This document shows positions 1 to 8,426 of a stretch of 64,000 bases of DNA, piece by piece. Made by a program: the position numbers and the translations under genes. The first letter of the stretch is position 1, and each line of letters opens with the position of its first letter. Origin of the DNA: an uncultured Winogradskyella sp. (lineage in GTDB: Bacteria; Bacteroidota; Bacteroidia; Flavobacteriales; Flavobacteriaceae); the NCBI RefSeq assembly GCF_937958655.1, contig NZ_CALGNH010000038.1, positions 1 through 64,000 on the forward strand, in the 5' to 3' direction. The notes beneath the pieces were generated by a model. The model searched no databases. It was not told the DNA's origin and saw nothing but the letters and a program-made list of their open reading frames with translations.

Positions 1-561
1 GCTTCCTAAAGTTGCACTTGTATTTGTACAATCTATAGTTGCATCTGCTCCTGCATTTGCAGTGGGTAAATCATTATCTACAGTCACAACTACATCATCC
101 CCTGTACTTTCACAACCTGTAGCTGTTTCTGTAACGATCAAAGTGTATGTGATGGTGACTGCTGGTGTTGCTACTGGCTGAGCTGCCGTTGCATCATCCA
201 AACCTGTTGTCGGTGTCCATGCATATGTAAAGCCTGCTTGTGCTGCGCTTCCTAAAGTTGCACTTGTATTTGTACAATCTATAGTTGCATCTGCTCCTGC
301 ATTTGCAGTGGGTAAATCATTATCTACAGTCACAACTACATCATCTCCTGTACTTTCACAGCCTGTAGCTGTTTCTGTAACTACTAAAGTGTATGTGGTG
401 GTGACTGTTGGTGTTGCTACTGGCTGAGCTGCCGTTGCATCATCTAAACCTGTTGTTGGTGTCCATGCGTATGTAAAGCCTGCTTGTGCTGCGCTTCCTA
501 AAGTTGCACTTGTATTTGTACAATCTATAGTTGCATCTGCTCCTGCATTTGCAGTGGGTAA
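1..561 (-). repeat. Tandem 246-bp (82-residue) repeats inside the adhesin gene
   Basis: The phrase gcttcctaaagttgcacttg recurs at 1, 247 and 493, an exact 246-bp period. In gene direction, unit 1 is 561-316, unit 2 is 315-70 and unit 3 (cut by the edge) is 69-1. Units 1 and 2 differ at about ten positions, and the 69 bases available for three units are identical. Each unit starts LPTANAGAD and has two cysteines (in TIDC and TGCES), resembling PKD/Ig-like surface repeats. The array continues past the window. Confidence 0.95.
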
Positions 562-3075
562 CGCATTTACTACTAACGTAATACTATCTTCTTCTGGGCA
601 AGAATTATTAGCTGTGGTTACTTCAACAGTATAATCACCTGCATCTGCCGCTTCAGCTCCCGTAATGGTTAAAGTATTTGCCGTTGATAAAGTCGTTGCT
701 GGCGTTGTGTTTTTATACCATCTGTAAATAAAATCTGAAGCCACTAGTGGCGTTGTTGTATCATCAGTTGTTGCACCAGTTTCTCCAAAATCTGTAACCC
801 TTATTCCTGTTGCTGTTGCCGTTAATGTAATATCGGTATCTACACAAACTTCAGCTGGATCTGGTGTAATTACTACTGTCGATATAACATCGCTTGCTGT
901 TACTGCTACTGTTGTTCCTTGTGGACTATTTGCTATTGATGGCACTCCATCAGTTCCTATACCACTAATGAGCCTGCCATTTCCATCAACGTTTGAAGCC
1001 ACAAAAGGACCGGATCCTTCAATAGCATCTGGACAACCATCGTTATCACTGTCATTATCTAAGTGATCCGCTAGACCATCTCCATCTGTATCTCTTGTCG
1101 TTGTGCTTGAAGGGTTGTCGAAATTTGTAGCACAATCAAACTCAATATTATGTTGTCTACCTGAAGAAGAAGCTCCTGCTTCTCGGGCAATAACTCCCAA
1201 ACGAATGACATAAGATGATTTATTTGCGTGTTCCGTTGCATAATTAACTTGTGGAAAGTTATTTGTAACGTTAGGATATTCAATATTTCCTGCTGTTCCT
1301 ACCACAAAATCATCAACGGTTTGTATTGTTATTTCTGTTGGGTTATCAACAAAATAACCAACTGGTAGCTGCGACCAATTCTGCTCGCCAAAAGTACTAT
1401 TACCATCAACATCATTAAAATTAACAAAGAACTGAGGTATAATGACGTCATTAACACCTGCTAATCCTCCCGTTGTTACAAAATTAAACCTAAACTCCGT
1501 ATAAGCTTGGTCACCTACATTTGCCAAATTAAAAGCAGATTGAGGTTGAAAAGAGTTAGGGTTAGATCCATTATCATCTAAAACAGGTAATGAAGTTCCA
1601 TTTAACTCTACTATTGTTACAAGTGCATCAATACCTGGAGAAACGTTAGGAAATCTGAATGTTTCGCCTTGCAAAAAAGTGGCTACATTTCCGTCTCCTC
1701 CTGGTTCTTCGGTAAATGCATTATTAAAATTCAATACTGTATTAGAACCACATGCTGGTGGTGTTCCAGCTGTTGTTACAACGCCTTCATTTATATCTAA
1801 TATACCATCGTTATCATCGTCATCATCACAACCATCTGGAACTAAATCTCCATCGGCATTGGCATTATCGTCTGAACCTGGGCATATATCATTTGCATCA
1901 ACAACACCATCATTATCAGAATCACATTGTCCATTAGAATCTGAAAGTGCATCATCTGCTGAGCCACCAATTGTCTGCCCATTATTAGCATCAACATTAT
2001 TTGGGATACCTGTAGTTGCATCTACAGTACCATCTAATTGACCGTTTGCCAATACATTAGTTGCTAAAATATTGTCTCCACCTTCTAATGCGTCTGGACA
2101 GCCATCGTTGTCTGTATCAACATCTAAATGATCTGGAATGTTGTCACCATCGGTATCTCTGTTAGCAAATAAAACTGGTGGTATATTCCATGTATCTAAA
2201 GGTAAGCATGGCAACAAAGACATAGAATGATTAGAAAGATCTGAGCCAAGTGATCCAAATCTAAAACTAACAGAGGTTACACTTCTAAATATTCCGGATA
2301 CGTGATACTGTGTTTGACCTATATCAATACCTCCAAAAACCGAACCATCAGATTGATAACCTACGCTAAATCCTGCTGATATAGCTGTACCCGAATACAG
2401 TAATTCATTTGTAGGATTATCAACAACAACATCTGAGTCTAACCCATCACCGTAAACTACAAACTCATTAACATCATTATCTATGGTTGTAAGAATATAA
2501 TCCTCTAGAGGAGCTGGCGTTTGTGTTGTATTGGCAGTTCCGGCAACTATAAAGTCGATTCTAAATTCTGTAAAACTATTTGGGCTGGCATGATCAATCT
2601 GTGGCTGAAAATTTTCATCCTCACCAAAACCATCTTCATCTAAAACTTGAATAGAATTATCGTTTGAAAAAACAATTGTTATGATAGCATCCACCCCATT
2701 ATAAACACCTGTATATAAAAAAGCGTCACCGACTTGTGGATTAAACACATTAGACCCTTGGAAATTATTTGGACCTTGTGCCGATCCAAATGCAGGAGCT
2801 GGCGCTTGTGTACAATCGAATGGATCGCGTTCATCAGCATCTAAAATACCATCATTATCATCGTCTAAATCACAAACATCACTAACTCCGTCACTGTCTG
2901 TGTCAATATTACCTGATGCTACTGGATCACAAGGATCAACTGCTTGTCCATAACTCACAATAGCTATTGAAAGCATAAAAAACAACATTAATAAGCGTTT
3001 ACTAACACTTGTAAAAGTTGTTAATCTTAAAAAATAATCATTTTTTAATACAGAAGGAATGGTTGTTTTTCCCAT
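1..3075 (-). CDS. Giant secreted adhesin with TSP3 and tandem Ig-like repeats (partial, C-terminus outside window)
   Basis: An open frame runs from an ATG at 3075 to the window edge, 1025 codons with no stop. A hydrophobic stretch at residues 28-42 ends in SYGQA, a plausible signal peptidase I site. Acidic thrombospondin type 3-like motifs (DxDxDGxxD) occur at about residues 57-82, 305-330, 355-400 and 665-690; these usually bind calcium. Between them lie two related regions of about 200 residues with shared phrases such as 'TEFR' and 'F-QPQ'. Towards the edge comes an Ig-like segment and then 82-residue tandem repeats. In Bacteroidetes this layout is typical of T9SS-exported surface adhesins, but the C-terminal sorting domain would lie outside the window, so T9SS export is inference. 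Confidence 0.85.
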
Positions 3076-3667
3076 AAATACAGTATATTAAATTTAGTTT
3101 TTGAATGCACTAAATGCATTAACTATTGTTGTTTATTGGTGGCAACATTTAATAATACTGATAAACAGAACAAACCTGTAGGTTTATCTAAAAGATTCTT
3201 AAGACCCCTTATTTGATTAAATGCACCATCACTACGATTGCATAGAATCAATTAGAATTACACCTAAACTATATTATTAATGAAAGGTTCTAAAAATCCC
3301 TTTTACCTATTAAAACTTCACCCTAAAAAGACAATGACCATGTCTGCTATAAGCTTTAATGTTTTTTAAGAACCTGACATTAATAATAAAAACAGTGTAA
3401 TATTTTTTAATTGAGTTGATTAGCAAATTCAAAATCAAAAGTAGCATTTCACTCTATTCTTAAATTTTAATAATTATTTGGTAAATCATTTTATCGTTGA
3501 AAAGTATATTTATTCGTTTAAGTGTATTTTTTGTGACGATATTCTTCTTTTTAGCTCATTTTTGCAAAAAATCTATGGCTATAGTCTAAGATCTTAAATT
3601 CTATTTAAAAAAGTATCGTATTCAACTTTGTTTTTTATCTTGCATGTAATTAATTCCCCTTAAATAT
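3076..3667. other. 592-bp AT-rich intergenic region between divergent genes
   Basis: No ORF or RNA gene was recognised here. The region separates the minus-strand adhesin (start 3075) from the plus-strand GTPase operon (start 3668), so it should hold both promoters. A perfect 6-bp inverted repeat, AATGCA-ctaaa-TGCATT, lies at 3104-3120, 29 bases upstream of the adhesin start, and could be an operator. No convincing TTTG/TAnnTTTG pair was found for either gene. Confidence 0.6.
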
Positions 3668-4021
3668 ATGAAAACAAAAATTAACGGAGCCCAAAAGCCA
3701 GTTACTAAAGACGATGAGTCCTCTAAATTTGAGGCTATTAAGGAAATCTTGTTTGGAGAAAATATTAAAACTTATAACCATGAGTTTGAATCTGTAAAGA
3801 AAGATATCCTAAACCAAAGACAAGAAATTTTAGATTTAATAGCAGATACTCAAAAAGAAATTGATAGTGCTATTGACAATTTATCTACAGATCTAAATAT
3901 AAGAATCACAGAATTACAAGACCAACTGAATAATAATATAGACGAGCTGGAGGCTAAAAAGGTAAGTAAAGCAACCTTAAGCGACTTATTTATTAAGTTA
4001 GGTACTGCGCTAAACTCATAG
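3668..4021 (+). CDS. Coiled-coil protein of unknown function, first gene of the GTPase operon
   Basis: 117 residues, charged, with no signal peptide or membrane segment. Residues about 35-100 are rich in E, K, Q, D and L/I in heptad-like spacing, predicting a coiled coil. I recognise no enzymatic motif. It lies 5 bases upstream of the next coiled-coil gene and is probably co-transcribed with it, the GTPase and the kinase, so it may be a structural partner of the second protein. Function unknown. Confidence 0.75.
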   Translation: MKTKINGAQKPVTKDDESSKFEAIKEILFGENIKTYNHEFESVKKDILNQRQEILDLIADTQKEIDSAIDNLSTDLNIRITELQDQLNNNIDELEAKKVSKATLSDLFIKLGTALNS

Positions 4022-4026
4022 TTCTT

Positions 4027-4833
4027 TTGCAATCTCAAGATTATAAAATAGAGGAACTACAACGCCTTCTTCTTCAAAAAGAACGTGATGATATTAATGC
4101 GTTAAAAAAAGAACTTGAAGCGCTACTGTACATTATTGATAACGAGAAACAACTAGAAAAAAAAGTAGCTCCGATTATAAGTAAGCATTTAAATGCGTAC
4201 ACCAAAGAAATGCCTTCCACTCTGGGGCCTACCATTACCAAAACACTTAAAACAGAAATTGAAAATTCCAAAGACAGCATTATCGATGTTTTATATCCGA
4301 TAATTGGTAAACTTATAAAACGTTACATACAACAAGAATTTTTAAAGCTTTCTGAAAAAATAAACCAACAAGTTAGTCGACGCTTATCTATTAAAGGTAT
4401 AACACGCAAGTTAAAAGCCTTTGTTATTGGCGTAAAAGAGGAAGACATAATTATTACTAGTTTGTCTGAAACTAAAATTCAAGAAATTTTTGTAATTGAA
4501 AAATTCTCTGGCATCCTTAAAGGCAGTTTCTCTAAATCTAAAACCATAGACAAAGAGAGCTTGTCTGCAATGCTAACTGCCATTAAAGCCTTTGCAGAGG
4601 ATGCTTTAAAAAACGGTACAGATCAATTAGAAGTCATTGAATATGGCTCTGATAAAATTTACATTCAAAATTTCGGAACCTATTATGTAGCCGTGGTTTT
4701 GTATGGTGTTTTAGACACTAATTATAAAGAAATTTTAGAAAGACAACTTTTTTCATTCTCAAAAAAATATTACCGCGACTCATCTTCTAATAGTGAAATA
4801 TCCAAAGGCTTAGATAAAATATTCAACACTTGA
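4027..4833 (+). CDS. Coiled-coil protein with roadblock/longin-like C-terminal domain, putative GTPase partner
   Basis: 268 residues, read from a TTG at 4027; no in-frame ATG is available upstream after the previous stop. Residues 1-60 are coiled coil. Residues about 60-130 form an amphipathic helical region. Residues about 150-255 read as strand-strand (IQEIFVIEKFSGIL), helix (ESLSAMLTAIKAFAEDAL), strands (LEVIEYG, IYIQNFG, YYVAVVLYG), helix (NYKEILERQL). That order resembles Roadblock/LC7 (MglB-type) folds and the domain before OmpA modules in some bacterial proteins encoded next to small GTPases. There is no OmpA domain and no signal peptide. The stop overlaps the GTPase start (TTGA). The partner role is inferred from fold pattern and context. 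Confidence 0.65.
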   Translation: MQSQDYKIEELQRLLLQKERDDINALKKELEALLYIIDNEKQLEKKVAPIISKHLNAYTKEMPSTLGPTITKTLKTEIENSKDSIIDVLYPIIGKLIKRYIQQEFLKLSEKINQQVSRRLSIKGITRKLKAFVIGVKEEDIIITSLSETKIQEIFVIEKFSGILKGSFSKSKTIDKESLSAMLTAIKAFAEDALKNGTDQLEVIEYGSDKIYIQNFGTYYVAVVLYGVLDTNYKEILERQLFSFSKKYYRDSSSNSEISKGLDKIFNT

Positions 4834-5321
4834 AAGTATCAAAAAAAATAGTATTATTAGGACATTATGGAGTTGGTAAAACCTCTATAATAAGGCAATT
4901 TGTGACCAATGAATTTTCTACTAATTACCAAGTTACAATTGGTGTACATATTTTAAAAAAAGAGTTACATATTAAACATAAAGATATCTCCTTAATTTTA
5001 TGGGATATTGAAGGCACTAATGATCTTGAATTAATTAGATCTGCCTACCTATTAGGTTCTCATGCTTTCATTTTCGCTTATGATCTGTGCAGACCAAACA
5101 CCTATAATCAATTATTAAAGCAAATTGAAAGCCTTAAGCAAAAATACCCTAAAACAATATGTAAGGTTGTTGGTAATAAGTTAGATTTAATTGATACTGT
5201 AGATACCACCTCTATAGACTATAAAACAATTTTAGAACATACAGATTACCTAACCAGTGCAAAAACAGGTGAAAATATTGAACGGTTATTTAATGATTTA
5301 GCAACAAATTTGGTACTATGA
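4830..5321 (+). CDS. Ras/Rab-like small GTPase
   Basis: 163 residues from a TTG overlapping the previous stop. All five G motifs are visible: P-loop GHYGVGKTS (11-19), switch I Thr (T36 in QVTIG), DxxG in WDIEG (59-62), NKLD (116-119) and SAK (143-145). The residue equivalent to the catalytic Gln of Ras (after WDTAG) is Thr63, which predicts slow intrinsic hydrolysis and dependence on a partner. There is no C-terminal lipidation cysteine, so it is probably cytoplasmic. The next gene overlaps by four bases (ATGA). The GTPase call is certain; the process it controls is unknown. Confidence 0.92.
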   Translation: MKVSKKIVLLGHYGVGKTSIIRQFVTNEFSTNYQVTIGVHILKKELHIKHKDISLILWDIEGTNDLELIRSAYLLGSHAFIFAYDLCRPNTYNQLLKQIESLKQKYPKTICKVVGNKLDLIDTVDTTSIDYKTILEHTDYLTSAKTGENIERLFNDLATNLVL

Positions 5322-6808
5322 GTACATTGTCTTCATTAAGAGCATCATATATTAAAAAAAATACTCAATTTATACTTGTTGATGTAAATGGGGAGATCTT
5401 AGACAGTGATGATATTCTGTTTAAGTGTGAAACAGGTTGCAATATCGAAGAATTACATCCCATTTTTATTGGCTTAATAGATAGAGAACATATAGACGAT
5501 CAAAACATTTCGTGCGTACATCTAAAGATTAATAAAACAGAGCTTATTTGCGATATACTATTAAAAAAAAGTGAGACAGGTTTTGTAATTATTGTAACGG
5601 ATTTTTCAATACACTACAATTCTTTTCAAAGCCTTGCACAATCTCGTAATGAAACAGCAATAACCTCAGAGCTAATATATCTAAAAAACAATGAACTTAA
5701 TGAAATCCGCGAGTTTAAAAACAAATTTCTAGAAAATTTCAATCATCAATTAGTATCACCCGTATTAAGTATATTAACATTTTCTGATGCTTTAACAAAA
5801 ACAAAACTAACATCAGAACAGAAAAGTTACAGTTCTATCATTGCTACATCGGCAGATATGATTAAAAATATGATAAATGATACTTTTGATATTGCAAAAA
5901 TTGAAACTGGTAATTTAGAAATAATACAAAAGCGATTTAGTTTAAAAAAACTGATGAAAGACATTGTAAAAAGCTATGAAAAAAAATCTAAATTAAAACA
6001 TTTGGCAATTAACTCTTACTATGTAGATAGTATGCCAGACTATATAGTAAGTGATAAATTAAGGATTGGTCAGATAATAAACAATCTTTTAGATAATGCT
6101 ATAAAATATACCAACTCGGGTGAAATAATAATTAAAACAGAGCCCGTCTACAAAAGGGCTCGTAAACTCACATTTACGATTAAAATAATAGATACTGGTA
6201 TTGGAATTGATACGCAGCACCAAGACAGTATTTTTGATCGATTTACCAGAATAAAAACAAATTCAAATATACAAGGTAATGGTCTTGGCTTAGCAATAGC
6301 AAAAGATCTTGCTAAACTCTTAAATGGGGAAATAGAATTTAAAAGTGAGTTAGGTGTTGGCTCAGAATTTACATTTACCCTCCGAACCACCACACCTCTA
6401 AAATCACCGAATAAGGCTAAAATTATACACAAAACAACAGAAAACACTAAAAAAACGGAAATACTACTCATTGATAATAATACCATAAGCCAATTAAATA
6501 TTCTAAAAATTTTGGCGAACACAAAGGCATTTTTTGTAGATATTGTATCCAATGCAAAAGAGGCAGAAAAATCTTATTCCAAGAAACATTATGATTTAAT
6601 ACTCATAAATTATAAGCTTGATACCATTAATGGCTTAGAGCTAAGTAAAGTCCTTAATAAGGATAAAACTACAAATATTCTTTTACTAACAAGCCTTAAA
6701 ATTAAGGAGAGTGTATTAAAACAGTATTCACCTTATATAAATTATGTTTTGCAAAAGCCGTTTGATCCACAAACACTTATTGACAGCATAGAAATGTGCA
6801 TAAAATAA
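5318..6808 (+). CDS. Hybrid histidine kinase with degenerate C-terminal receiver
   Basis: 496 residues, no membrane segment, probably cytosolic. Residues 15-100 resemble a PAS-type sensor fold. HisKA follows with the H box NFNHQLVSP (His143), then HATPase_c with N box NNLLDNAIKY (Asn260), DTGIGI (292-297) and GNGLGLAIA (320-328). The C-terminal receiver (381-496) lacks the phospho-acceptor: the usual 'DLILMD' reads DLILIN, with Asn431. One acid of the metal-binding pair is lost (LLIDNN), while Thr458 and Lys480 are kept. In the H box the Glu after His is Gln and the Thr is Ser. The receiver is therefore probably a binding domain rather than a phosphorylated one. Translationally coupled to the GTPase gene. 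Confidence 0.9.
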   Translation: MSTLSSLRASYIKKNTQFILVDVNGEILDSDDILFKCETGCNIEELHPIFIGLIDREHIDDQNISCVHLKINKTELICDILLKKSETGFVIIVTDFSIHYNSFQSLAQSRNETAITSELIYLKNNELNEIREFKNKFLENFNHQLVSPVLSILTFSDALTKTKLTSEQKSYSSIIATSADMIKNMINDTFDIAKIETGNLEIIQKRFSLKKLMKDIVKSYEKKSKLKHLAINSYYVDSMPDYIVSDKLRIGQIINNLLDNAIKYTNSGEIIIKTEPVYKRARKLTFTIKIIDTGIGIDTQHQDSIFDRFTRIKTNSNIQGNGLGLAIAKDLAKLLNGEIEFKSELGVGSEFTFTLRTTTPLKSPNKAKIIHKTTENTKKTEILLIDNNTISQLNILKILANTKAFFVDIVSNAKEAEKSYSKKHYDLILINYKLDTINGLELSKVLNKDKTTNILLLTSLKIKESVLKQYSPYINYVLQKPFDPQTLIDSIEMCIK

Positions 6809-6836: not shown

Positions 6837-8426
6837 ATGAGTTTTACAGAAGAAATACAAAGACGAAGAACCTTTGGCATTATTTCCCACCCAGATGCAG
6901 GAAAAACTACCCTTACAGAAAAATTATTACTATTTGGTGGTGCAATACAAGAGGCAGGAGCAGTAAAGAGTAATAAAATAAAAAAAGGAGCTACCAGTGA
7001 TTTTATGGAGATAGAACGTCAACGTGGTATTTCTGTTGCCACTTCCGTCTTAGCGTTTGAATACAATGGCATAAAAATTAATATCCTAGATACACCTGGC
7101 CATAAAGATTTTGCAGAAGACACCTTTAGAACACTTACCGCTGTAGACAGCGTAATTGTAGTGATAGACGTAGCAAAGGGTGTTGAGGAGCAAACTGAGA
7201 AATTAGTAGAAGTTTGTAGAATGCGTAATATCCCTATGATTGTTTTTATTAATAAGTTAGATCGTGAGGGAAAAGATGCTTTTGATCTATTAGATGAAGT
7301 TGAACAAAAATTAGGGCTCAAAGTTACTCCTTTAAGTTTTCCTATAGGCATGGGCTATGATTTTAAGGGTATCTATAATATTTGGGAGAAGAACGTAAAT
7401 CTTTTTAAAGGAGAAAGTAAACAACATATTAATGACACTGTAGAAATTACTGATTTAAATGCACCAGAACTCAACATTTTAGTTGGAGAAAGCTCTGCAC
7501 AAACCTTAAGAGATGAGATAGAATTAGTGGACGGTATTTATCCGAAGTTTGAAAAAGAGTCTTATCTAAATGGCGATTTACAACCTGTATTTTTTGGCTC
7601 TGCATTAAATAATTTTGGTGTAAGAGAACTGTTAGATTGTTTTATAGAAATTGCCCCTAAACCAAGACCAAAACACAGCGAAGAACGATTAGTTAAACCA
7701 GAGGAAAATAAATTCACTGGTTTTGTCTTTAAAATACATGCCAACATGGATCCTAATCACAGAAATCGCTTAGCATTTGTTAAGATCGTATCTGGTGAAT
7801 TTAAGAGAAATACACCCTATTTACATGTAAGACACAACAAAAAACTAAAGTTTTCTAGTCCTAATGCCTTTTTTGCTGAAAAGAAAGAAATTGTAGACAT
7901 CTCCTATCCTGGCGACATAGTAGGTTTACAAGATACAGGTAATTTTAAAATTGGTGATACCTTAACAGAAGGTGAAATAATTAACTACAAAGGGATTCCA
8001 AGTTTTTCACCTGAGCATTTTAGATATATCAACAATGCAGACCCTATGAAGGCTAAGCAACTTTATAAAGGAATAGATCAGCTTATGGATGAAGGTGTTG
8101 CGCAATTATTCACTTTAGATCTTAACGGACGTAAAGTTATTGGTACCGTTGGTGCACTGCAGTATGAAGTTATACAATACCGATTAGAACATGAATATGG
8201 AGCAAAATGCACGTATGAAAACCTTAATGTTCATAAAGCATGCTGGGTAGAAACCGAAAACGAAAAGAGTGAAGAATTTAAAGAGTTTCTTAGAGTAAAA
8301 CAGCGTTATCTTGCAAAGGATAAACAAGATCAGCTCGTTTTTCTTGCAGATTCTATGTTTTCTTTACAAATGACACAACAGAAGTATCCTAGTATTAAGT
8401 TTCACATGACTTCAGAGTATAAATAA
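6837..8426 (+). CDS. prfC: Peptide chain release factor 3 (RF3)
   Basis: 529 residues, the usual RF3 length. This translational GTPase removes RF1/RF2 from the ribosome after peptide release. The G1 motif SHPDAGKTT is at 17-25, DTPGH at about 84-88 and NKLD at about 138-141. The RF3-specific C-terminal domain is present (MDEGVAQLF, VGALQYEVIQYRLEHEYG). It lies 28 bases after the histidine kinase stop with no hairpin between, so read-through transcription is possible; prfC is nonetheless a housekeeping gene with no evident functional tie to the kinase. Confidence 0.97.
   Translation: MSFTEEIQRRRTFGIISHPDAGKTTLTEKLLLFGGAIQEAGAVKSNKIKKGATSDFMEIERQRGISVATSVLAFEYNGIKINILDTPGHKDFAEDTFRTLTAVDSVIVVIDVAKGVEEQTEKLVEVCRMRNIPMIVFINKLDREGKDAFDLLDEVEQKLGLKVTPLSFPIGMGYDFKGIYNIWEKNVNLFKGESKQHINDTVEITDLNAPELNILVGESSAQTLRDEIELVDGIYPKFEKESYLNGDLQPVFFGSALNNFGVRELLDCFIEIAPKPRPKHSEERLVKPEENKFTGFVFKIHANMDPNHRNRLAFVKIVSGEFKRNTPYLHVRHNKKLKFSSPNAFFAEKKEIVDISYPGDIVGLQDTGNFKIGDTLTEGEIINYKGIPSFSPEHFRYINNADPMKAKQLYKGIDQLMDEGVAQLFTLDLNGRKVIGTVGALQYEVIQYRLEHEYGAKCTYENLNVHKACWVETENEKSEEFKEFLRVKQRYLAKDKQDQLVFLADSMFSLQMTQQKYPSIKFHMTSEYK

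Follow-up and report, generated by a model that had tools for sequence, protein, structure and literature searches.

The 64,000-nucleotide stretch analysed here (the window), from an uncultured Winogradskyella sp. (contig NZ_CALGNH010000038.1), carries a compact operon of four open reading frames (ORFs), all on the forward strand. The encoded proteins are four co-inherited parts: a coiled-coil protein, a second protein (here protein 2) in which a coiled coil is combined with a roadblock/longin-like domain, a Ras-like GTPase that lacks the glutamine of its G3 motif, and a kinase whose PAS-like head is accompanied by an invariant glutamine. The first gene (3668-4021) specifies a 117-residue protein that carries the conserved motif IKEILFGEN..Y..EF close to the N-terminus, and the second (4027-4833) the 268 residues of protein 2; a Pfam and NCBIfam search returned no match above curated cut-off for either. 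The third (4830-5321) and fourth (5318-6808) encode a GTPase of 163 residues and a hybrid histidine kinase of 496 residues. A 5-base gap is followed by two 4-base overlaps, as the original prediction for this DNA had it. TTG starts were assumed for genes 2 and 3, the reading frames and stops of which are certain.

The GTPase and its assignment to Group 1 Rup

The GTPase matches the Pfam Ras family at an E value of 4.4e-31, and its closest relatives of solved structure are Rab6 and other Rabs. Its motifs comprise the P-loop GHYGVGKT (4860-4883), Thr36, WDIEG, NKLD and TSAK, and Thr63 (WDIEGT; 5016-5018) stands where Ras has Gln61, which bears out the earlier claim of a GTPase with all G motifs and a threonine for the catalytic glutamine. 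Within the window's own genome, a single match at E 0.001 was found for the GTPase and likewise for protein 2 (a second, weak match to protein 2 lies at E 0.034); other matches to the Ras model are at 9.2e-9 or weaker and fall within longer frames. In a GTPase tree, made without the 71 published Rup sequences, 82 Rup-type rows including the window group together (support 98/88), separate from six MglA rows, two of them identical (support 100/98), and from two other GTPases of the same genome. The window GTPase sits on a long branch, and its placement inside the Rup-type rows is unsure. The residue after WDxxG is glutamine in three of these 82 rows and another residue in 78, with the pattern unmatched in one; two of 83 GTPase matches had been removed beforehand by a P-loop and length filter.

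Group 1 Rup systems were defined in 2014 by Wuichet and Sogaard-Andersen (PMC4316618). In the accessible part of that paper, they consist of a GTPase without the G3 glutamine, a coiled-coil protein, a further protein whose domain is of unknown function and which often also has a transmembrane helix and an OmpA domain, and an output protein. The output is typically GGDEF/EAL or a kinase and has an N-terminal invariant glutamine, which the authors suggested might be supplied in trans. Rup was set apart from MglA partly for want of a coupled MglB homologue, the Rup regulator was left open, and experimental characterisation of any Rup member was lacking (PMC4316618); among the papers listed from the open-licence literature, we found none since 2014.

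It is close to certain that the window operon is a Group 1 Rup system. Its GTPase lies outside the MglA family, lacks the G3 glutamine and adjoins genes for a coiled-coil protein and a second conserved protein, and the output carries an N-terminal invariant glutamine, Gln108, which we infer to be the glutamine published for Rup outputs. The transmembrane helix with OmpA domain was not found in the window, where protein 2 has 268 residues and no OmpA match; the domain is not required, because the 2014 paper says "often" (PMC4316618). Gene content, GTPase type, partner and output glutamine are otherwise those described for Group 1 Rup, the hosts of which include Bacteroidetes (PMC4316618). As far as that text goes, three differences are seen: the partner's domain, unknown there, is here given a predicted roadblock/longin fold; the published GGDEF/EAL and kinase outputs are joined by class III cyclase, SpoIIE phosphatase and sigma-54 activator outputs; and the window copy is without OmpA and has a pseudo-receiver. 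The novelty first supposed for the four-gene set is therefore not supported: Group 1 Rup neighbourhoods that combine a kinase with the coiled-coil protein and the partner appeared in print in 2014 (PMC4316618).

Conservation of the locus across phyla

When named genomes were scanned with the GTPase alignment as query, at least 517 loci were confirmed, and the best 80 of these span Bacteroidota, Pseudomonadota, Nitrospirota, Cyanobacteriota, Chloroflexota, Acidobacteriota, Myxococcota and others. Homologues of protein 2 are present in 78 of the 80 and those of the coiled-coil protein in 76, and 56 have the Bacteroidota-type kinase head. Protein 2 is missing from L117, which is a contig of 5,750 bases, and from L118, where the GTPase lies 776 bases from the end. 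By best hits, the order coiled-coil gene, protein 2, GTPase on one strand is kept in 72 of the 80 loci (73 if a locus with an intervening head gene is included), far outside close relatives, and the kinase head lies beside the GTPase in 55 of the 56 Bacteroidota-type loci. The coiled-coil protein and protein 2 also resemble each other in their N-terminal motifs (probability 75%), but this was discounted because both sets had initially been selected with similar patterns.

Protein 2 is predicted to adopt a roadblock/longin fold

Protein 2 was modelled with AlphaFold2 from a 77-row alignment, at a mean predicted local distance difference test (pLDDT) score of 85.1. The model begins with two long and two shorter helices and continues as strand-strand-helix-strand-strand-strand-helix-helix. 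The long helices (residues 2-79 and 81-118) make up a coiled-coil N-terminal half (4033-4383), and the strand-strand-helix-strand-strand-strand-helix arrangement at about residues 150-249 (4474-4773) is the roadblock/longin-like domain. Foldseek comparison with the PDB gave 62 matches at E up to 0.001. All of the best 50 (8.8e-5 to 8.7e-4) are, by title, chains of AP complexes, Mon1-Ccz1, TRAPP, MglB, Ragulator/p14-MP1, CPLANE/Fuzzy, COPI, Ykt6, Ego3, prokaryotic roadblock proteins and similar, which we take to be longin or roadblock domains. Template modelling (TM) scores reach 0.65 when normalised to the target and are 0.28-0.36 when normalised to the whole query, the latter being low because the helical half of protein 2 is unmatched.

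Profile comparison agrees with the model. In hhalign, the protein 2 core aligned with 40 bacterial roadblock domains at a score of 32.9 (probability 71.8%) over 80 collinear columns, whereas the highest-scoring of 200 column shuffles reached 21.3 and a reversed roadblock profile 12.3; the control profiles of the protein 2 N-terminal half, the PAS head and the GTPase gave probabilities of 0.1, 2.1 and 0.4%. The 22 OmpA-type rows alone matched roadblock at a score of 33.5 (73%) and the 55 Bacteroidota-type rows alone at 28.7 (45%). Five residues, Pro91, Gly162, Met182, Ala185 and Phe189, are identical in all 77 rows of protein 2. From profiles and modelling, protein 2 is very probably of roadblock/longin nature, in line with the earlier suggestion of a roadblock-like C-terminus for this 268-residue protein. 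With this fold predicted and the gene order conserved, neither of the two outcomes that the original prediction had named against itself, a C-terminus unlike roadblock/longin folds or a gene order confined to close relatives, came about.

The assignment appears to be new. The 2014 paper, in its accessible part, predicted no MglB-type partner for Rup (PMC4316618), and the titles and abstract openings of the papers listed from the open-licence literature yielded no fold assignment for the Rup partner, which does not prove its absence from print. The window's protein 2 has no match to Robl_LC7 (PF03259) over the cut-off, no Robl_LC7 was found in its own genome at E 0.1, and none was found in eight of 12 other Rup genomes searched, the completeness of which is not known; given the latter, the system appears able to do without a classical MglB.

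OmpA was found in eight of nine long protein 2 homologues at E 0.001, seven of them over the curated cut-off. Some other Bacteroidota lineages, with a protein 2 that is without OmpA, have a PG_binding_1-like gene at the operon (L012 5777-6424, L013 8022-8675, L035 7562-8278 and its copy L055, L056 11442-12068, L058 784-1428; the Pfam match was checked for L012), in most cases adjoining the coiled-coil gene. Its product may substitute for the OmpA anchor.

An invariant glutamine in the output head

The N-terminus of the kinase is modelled by AlphaFold2, at a mean pLDDT of 94.1, as a PAS-like fold (about residues 1-96; 5318-5605) followed by a long helix. A single PDB match passes E 0.001 in Foldseek, the histidine kinase VC2136 (4.2e-4), and below it the matches are mostly PAS, LOV and phytochrome chains. 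Gln108 (5639-5641; QxRNE), in the helix after the PAS-like strands, is the sole invariant column of the 77-row head alignment. Across a wider set this position is glutamine in 91 of 91 aligned outputs, of which 64 were obtained with a model that already contained the glutamine and 26 were hand-picked from beside GTPases. Outputs were obtained from 15 of the 24 non-Bacteroidota-type loci of the scan; L089, L094, L099, L119, L120, L121, L122, L123 and L127 yielded no usable output and were excluded.

Because some heads are very divergent, subsets were also aligned separately. The 22 non-Bacteroidota-type heads alone have one fully invariant glutamine column (22/22), as do nine of the most divergent heads alone (9/9), and the latter match the other 82 with a probability of 93% and a score of 48.7 (best of 50 shuffles, 13.5), glutamine on glutamine. 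By Pfam, the head precedes histidine kinases (L113, L041, L131), class III cyclases (L105, L133, L130), a SpoIIE phosphatase (L112), a GGDEF-EAL protein (L108) and a sigma-54 activator (L118). The heads of L131, L118, L134, L125 and L108 are just 6-9% identical to that of the window, so the sigma-54 and GGDEF-EAL cases depend on the 93% profile match. Four loci (L100 7873-8959, L061 8536-8934, L060 8571-8921, L080 8053-8791) contain, inside the operon, a GTPase that is duplicated or shortened and PAS-Gln heads that stand alone, with no kinase; these may be genuine single-head proteins or decaying duplicates and were not used as evidence.

Behind the head, Pfam finds HisKA and HATPase_c (5717-6388), with the H-box histidine at His143, and a receiver domain (6461-6790) in which the phospho-acceptor is replaced by Asn431 (6608-6610). 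The H-box histidine is present in 63 of 65 kinases, and to judge from the sequence kinase activity is probably retained. The phospho-site of the same 65 is Asp in 43, Lys in eight, Ser in six, Asn in five, and Ala, His and a gap in one each; a close relative (L009) keeps the Asp. Loss of the site is thus recurrent and no feature of the system: the non-phosphorylatable receiver noted at the outset holds for the window copy, and a pseudo-receiver as hallmark of the system was ruled out. Four loci have a second complete PAS-Gln hybrid kinase after the first (L070 11123-12640, L071 11122-12642, L096 11108-12634, L129 11115-12638), with Asn at the phospho-site in all four.

Co-inheritance of the parts

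Protein 2 and the GTPase occur together without exception in two genome sets. Among 60 related genomes, the window's own included, protein 2 is in six and the GTPase in the same six; of 395 genomes sampled from the phylum, 14 have protein 2 and the identical 14 have the GTPase. These 14 share ancestry (11 genera) and are therefore not 14 independent events. The head profile matches nine of the 395, all among the 14, with no match at 1e-6 in the other five.

Four genomes (G020, G071, G092, G188) have protein 2 and the GTPase on different contigs, and in all four a PAS-Gln output adjoins the GTPase. The coiled-coil gene lies beside protein 2 in G020, G071 and G188, the three that were read, and a GTPase search around the protein 2 loci of G071 and G188 found none nearby. 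Since G071, G092 and G188 belong to one genus, the split arrangement represents at least two separate cases. These separations indicate that the system tends to split into a coiled-coil and roadblock/longin pair and a GTPase and PAS-Gln output pair. Within the window's genus, the system was found in three of 36 other congeners searched, with a protein 2 that is 39-55% identical to that of the window; this patchy distribution suggests repeated loss or transfer.

A proposed switch and its alternatives

We interpret the operon as a Rup switch composed of a roadblock/longin platform, the GTPase and a PAS-head effector that would supply the missing glutamine, and give this mechanism as a whole a probability of about 0.62. 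The coiled-coil pair would hold the roadblock/longin domains as a GTPase-binding platform, which would set the nucleotide state of the GTPase and load or position it, as exchange factor or scaffold. GTP-bound Rup would dock on the PAS-like head and signalling helix and thereby alter kinase output. To switch the system off, Gln108 would reach the nucleotide in place of the G3 glutamine, so that, in our proposal, effector and GTPase-activating protein (GAP) would be one protein. That the GTPase acts directly on the PAS head is likely; completion of catalysis in trans by Gln108 is a more tentative prediction, to which we give somewhat less than even odds. TBC-domain RabGAPs, which supply a glutamine finger, are a precedent. 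In many other phyla the OmpA domain of the platform should tie it to peptidoglycan, and the input there is thus probably envelope state; envelope input is likely where OmpA is present, and flavobacterial platforms like that of the window have no such anchor.

Several results weigh against this interpretation. The whole-model predicted TM score of protein 2 is 0.51; against five roadblock sequences hhalign gave no significant match (1.2%), and with the 40 rows the probability was 22% in global mode. PDB sequence searches with the protein 2 and head profiles returned nothing significant, no protein 2 member matching a solved structure, and Robl_LC7 is not among the 25 listed of 122 weak Pfam families for the 77 protein 2 members. 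As to the head, the 93% match of the divergent heads extends into the kinase region, the Bacteroidota-type model finds only nine of the 22 other heads at E 0.001, and Arg110 is no general second finger, being Ala in 10 of 15 non-Bacteroidota-type rows. At the three loci where the GTPase has the G3 glutamine, the outputs retain the head glutamine as well, and the two are thus not simply swapped. Finally, a third register in the heptad analysis places Gln108 at a core d position, by small margins, and a structural role in a dimeric helix is possible.

The retained head glutamine at those three loci also favours the most serious alternative, in which the roadblock/longin protein itself serves as GAP, the part that MglB plays for MglA, and the output glutamine is a structural polar residue for PAS-helix switching. 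MglB is a GAP of the roadblock family according to the accessible part of the 2014 paper (PMC4316618), the Foldseek matches of protein 2 include MglB chains, and the glutamine sits in the helix directly after the PAS strands. We nevertheless judge this account unlikely: the glutamine is invariant also with cyclase, phosphatase, diguanylate cyclase and sigma-54 activator outputs, the two best heptad registers place it at exposed c and f positions (again by small margins), and in the genomes where the system is split the head accompanies the GTPase and not protein 2.

It is less probable still, though PAS and roadblock folds can look alike and one roadblock chain appears at rank 40 among the matches of the PAS model, that the fold match reflects a general profilin/PAS-like resemblance and that protein 2 is only a kinase scaffold, envelope-linked in other phyla, and no GTPase regulator. 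The listed matches of the protein 2 model are longin and roadblock domains, not PAS; in profile comparison it pairs with roadblock (72%) but not with PAS (0.1%); and it co-occurs perfectly with the GTPase. That an ordinary hybrid kinase gene merely follows an unrelated GTPase operon by chance, for which the sole support is that hybrid kinases are common in Bacteroidota, is scarcely credible given the placement of the head beside the GTPase in 55 of 56 Bacteroidota-type loci, also in genomes with protein 2 elsewhere, and the invariance of the glutamine across output types.

Relation to known GTPase systems

The original prediction had taken MglA/MglB polarity control as the nearest described analogue. 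Myxococcus MglA/MglB likewise pairs a Ras-like GTPase with a roadblock-fold partner. The window GTPase, by contrast, groups outside the MglA rows and retains Asp in its G3 motif (WDxxG), its genome is without Robl_LC7, and protein 2 has a long helical half that the solved MglB chains, of about 120-130 residues, do not have. Membership of the MglA/MglB system was ruled out by the GTPase tree and the missing Robl_LC7.

Among GTPase systems with an operon kinase, the actinobacterial conservon (AGPS; CvnA-D) is a nearer analogue than plain MglA/MglB, as far as the accessible parts of the sources go (PMC13343842, PMC4316618), and the original prediction is in sum partly supported. The conservon has a GTPase of the MglA family (PMC4316618) and a classical MglB-type roadblock protein (PMC13343842), whereas the window GTPase is not MglA and its genome has no Robl_LC7 match; the conservon abstract mentions neither a PAS-Gln head nor a coiled coil fused to roadblock (PMC13343842). 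The eukaryotic Rab/Rag platforms Mon1-Ccz1, TRAPP and Ragulator share the partner fold by Foldseek. They differ in that no significant sequence match links them to protein 2, which is bacterial, contains a coiled coil and often carries OmpA.

Genomic surroundings

The operon is followed by prfC (6837-8426), which is also the neighbour at L009 and L047, indicating that the operon site is old within the genus. At L047 (genome G020) the prfC-side site is without the first two operon genes, which are on another contig. Upstream, on the reverse strand and divergent from the operon, a very large adhesin-like gene begins (1-3076); it has DxDxDG-type repeats and tandem units that are nearly identical, and is truncated at the window edge. 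PorP/SprF-like genes, of a kind associated with type IX secretion, were seen near the Rup operon at L009 (6116-7045), L011 (2159-3121), L083 (13157-14074) and L110 (13178-14095). A PorP/SprF-adhesin linkage was dropped as a clue to function, being found at only four of 88 scanned loci, with some the same genome twice.

Implications

Taken at its widest, the system would be a complete bacterial G-protein switch of platform, GTPase and effector-GAP, with one PAS-Gln head on interchangeable outputs, and the pairing of a Ras-like GTPase with longin/roadblock domains would be common to the MglA family, Group 1 Rup and eukaryotes; this broadest form is speculative, and we hold it with less confidence than the catalytic role of Gln108. 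Roadblock/longin-type partners handle small GTPases in motile bacteria and in human cells. If the partner described here is a divergent roadblock/longin domain, the MglA-type and Group 1 Rup systems would share an architecture with Rab/Rag regulation, and the missing GAP of Rup would become directly testable with a single glutamine mutant in a small soluble domain.

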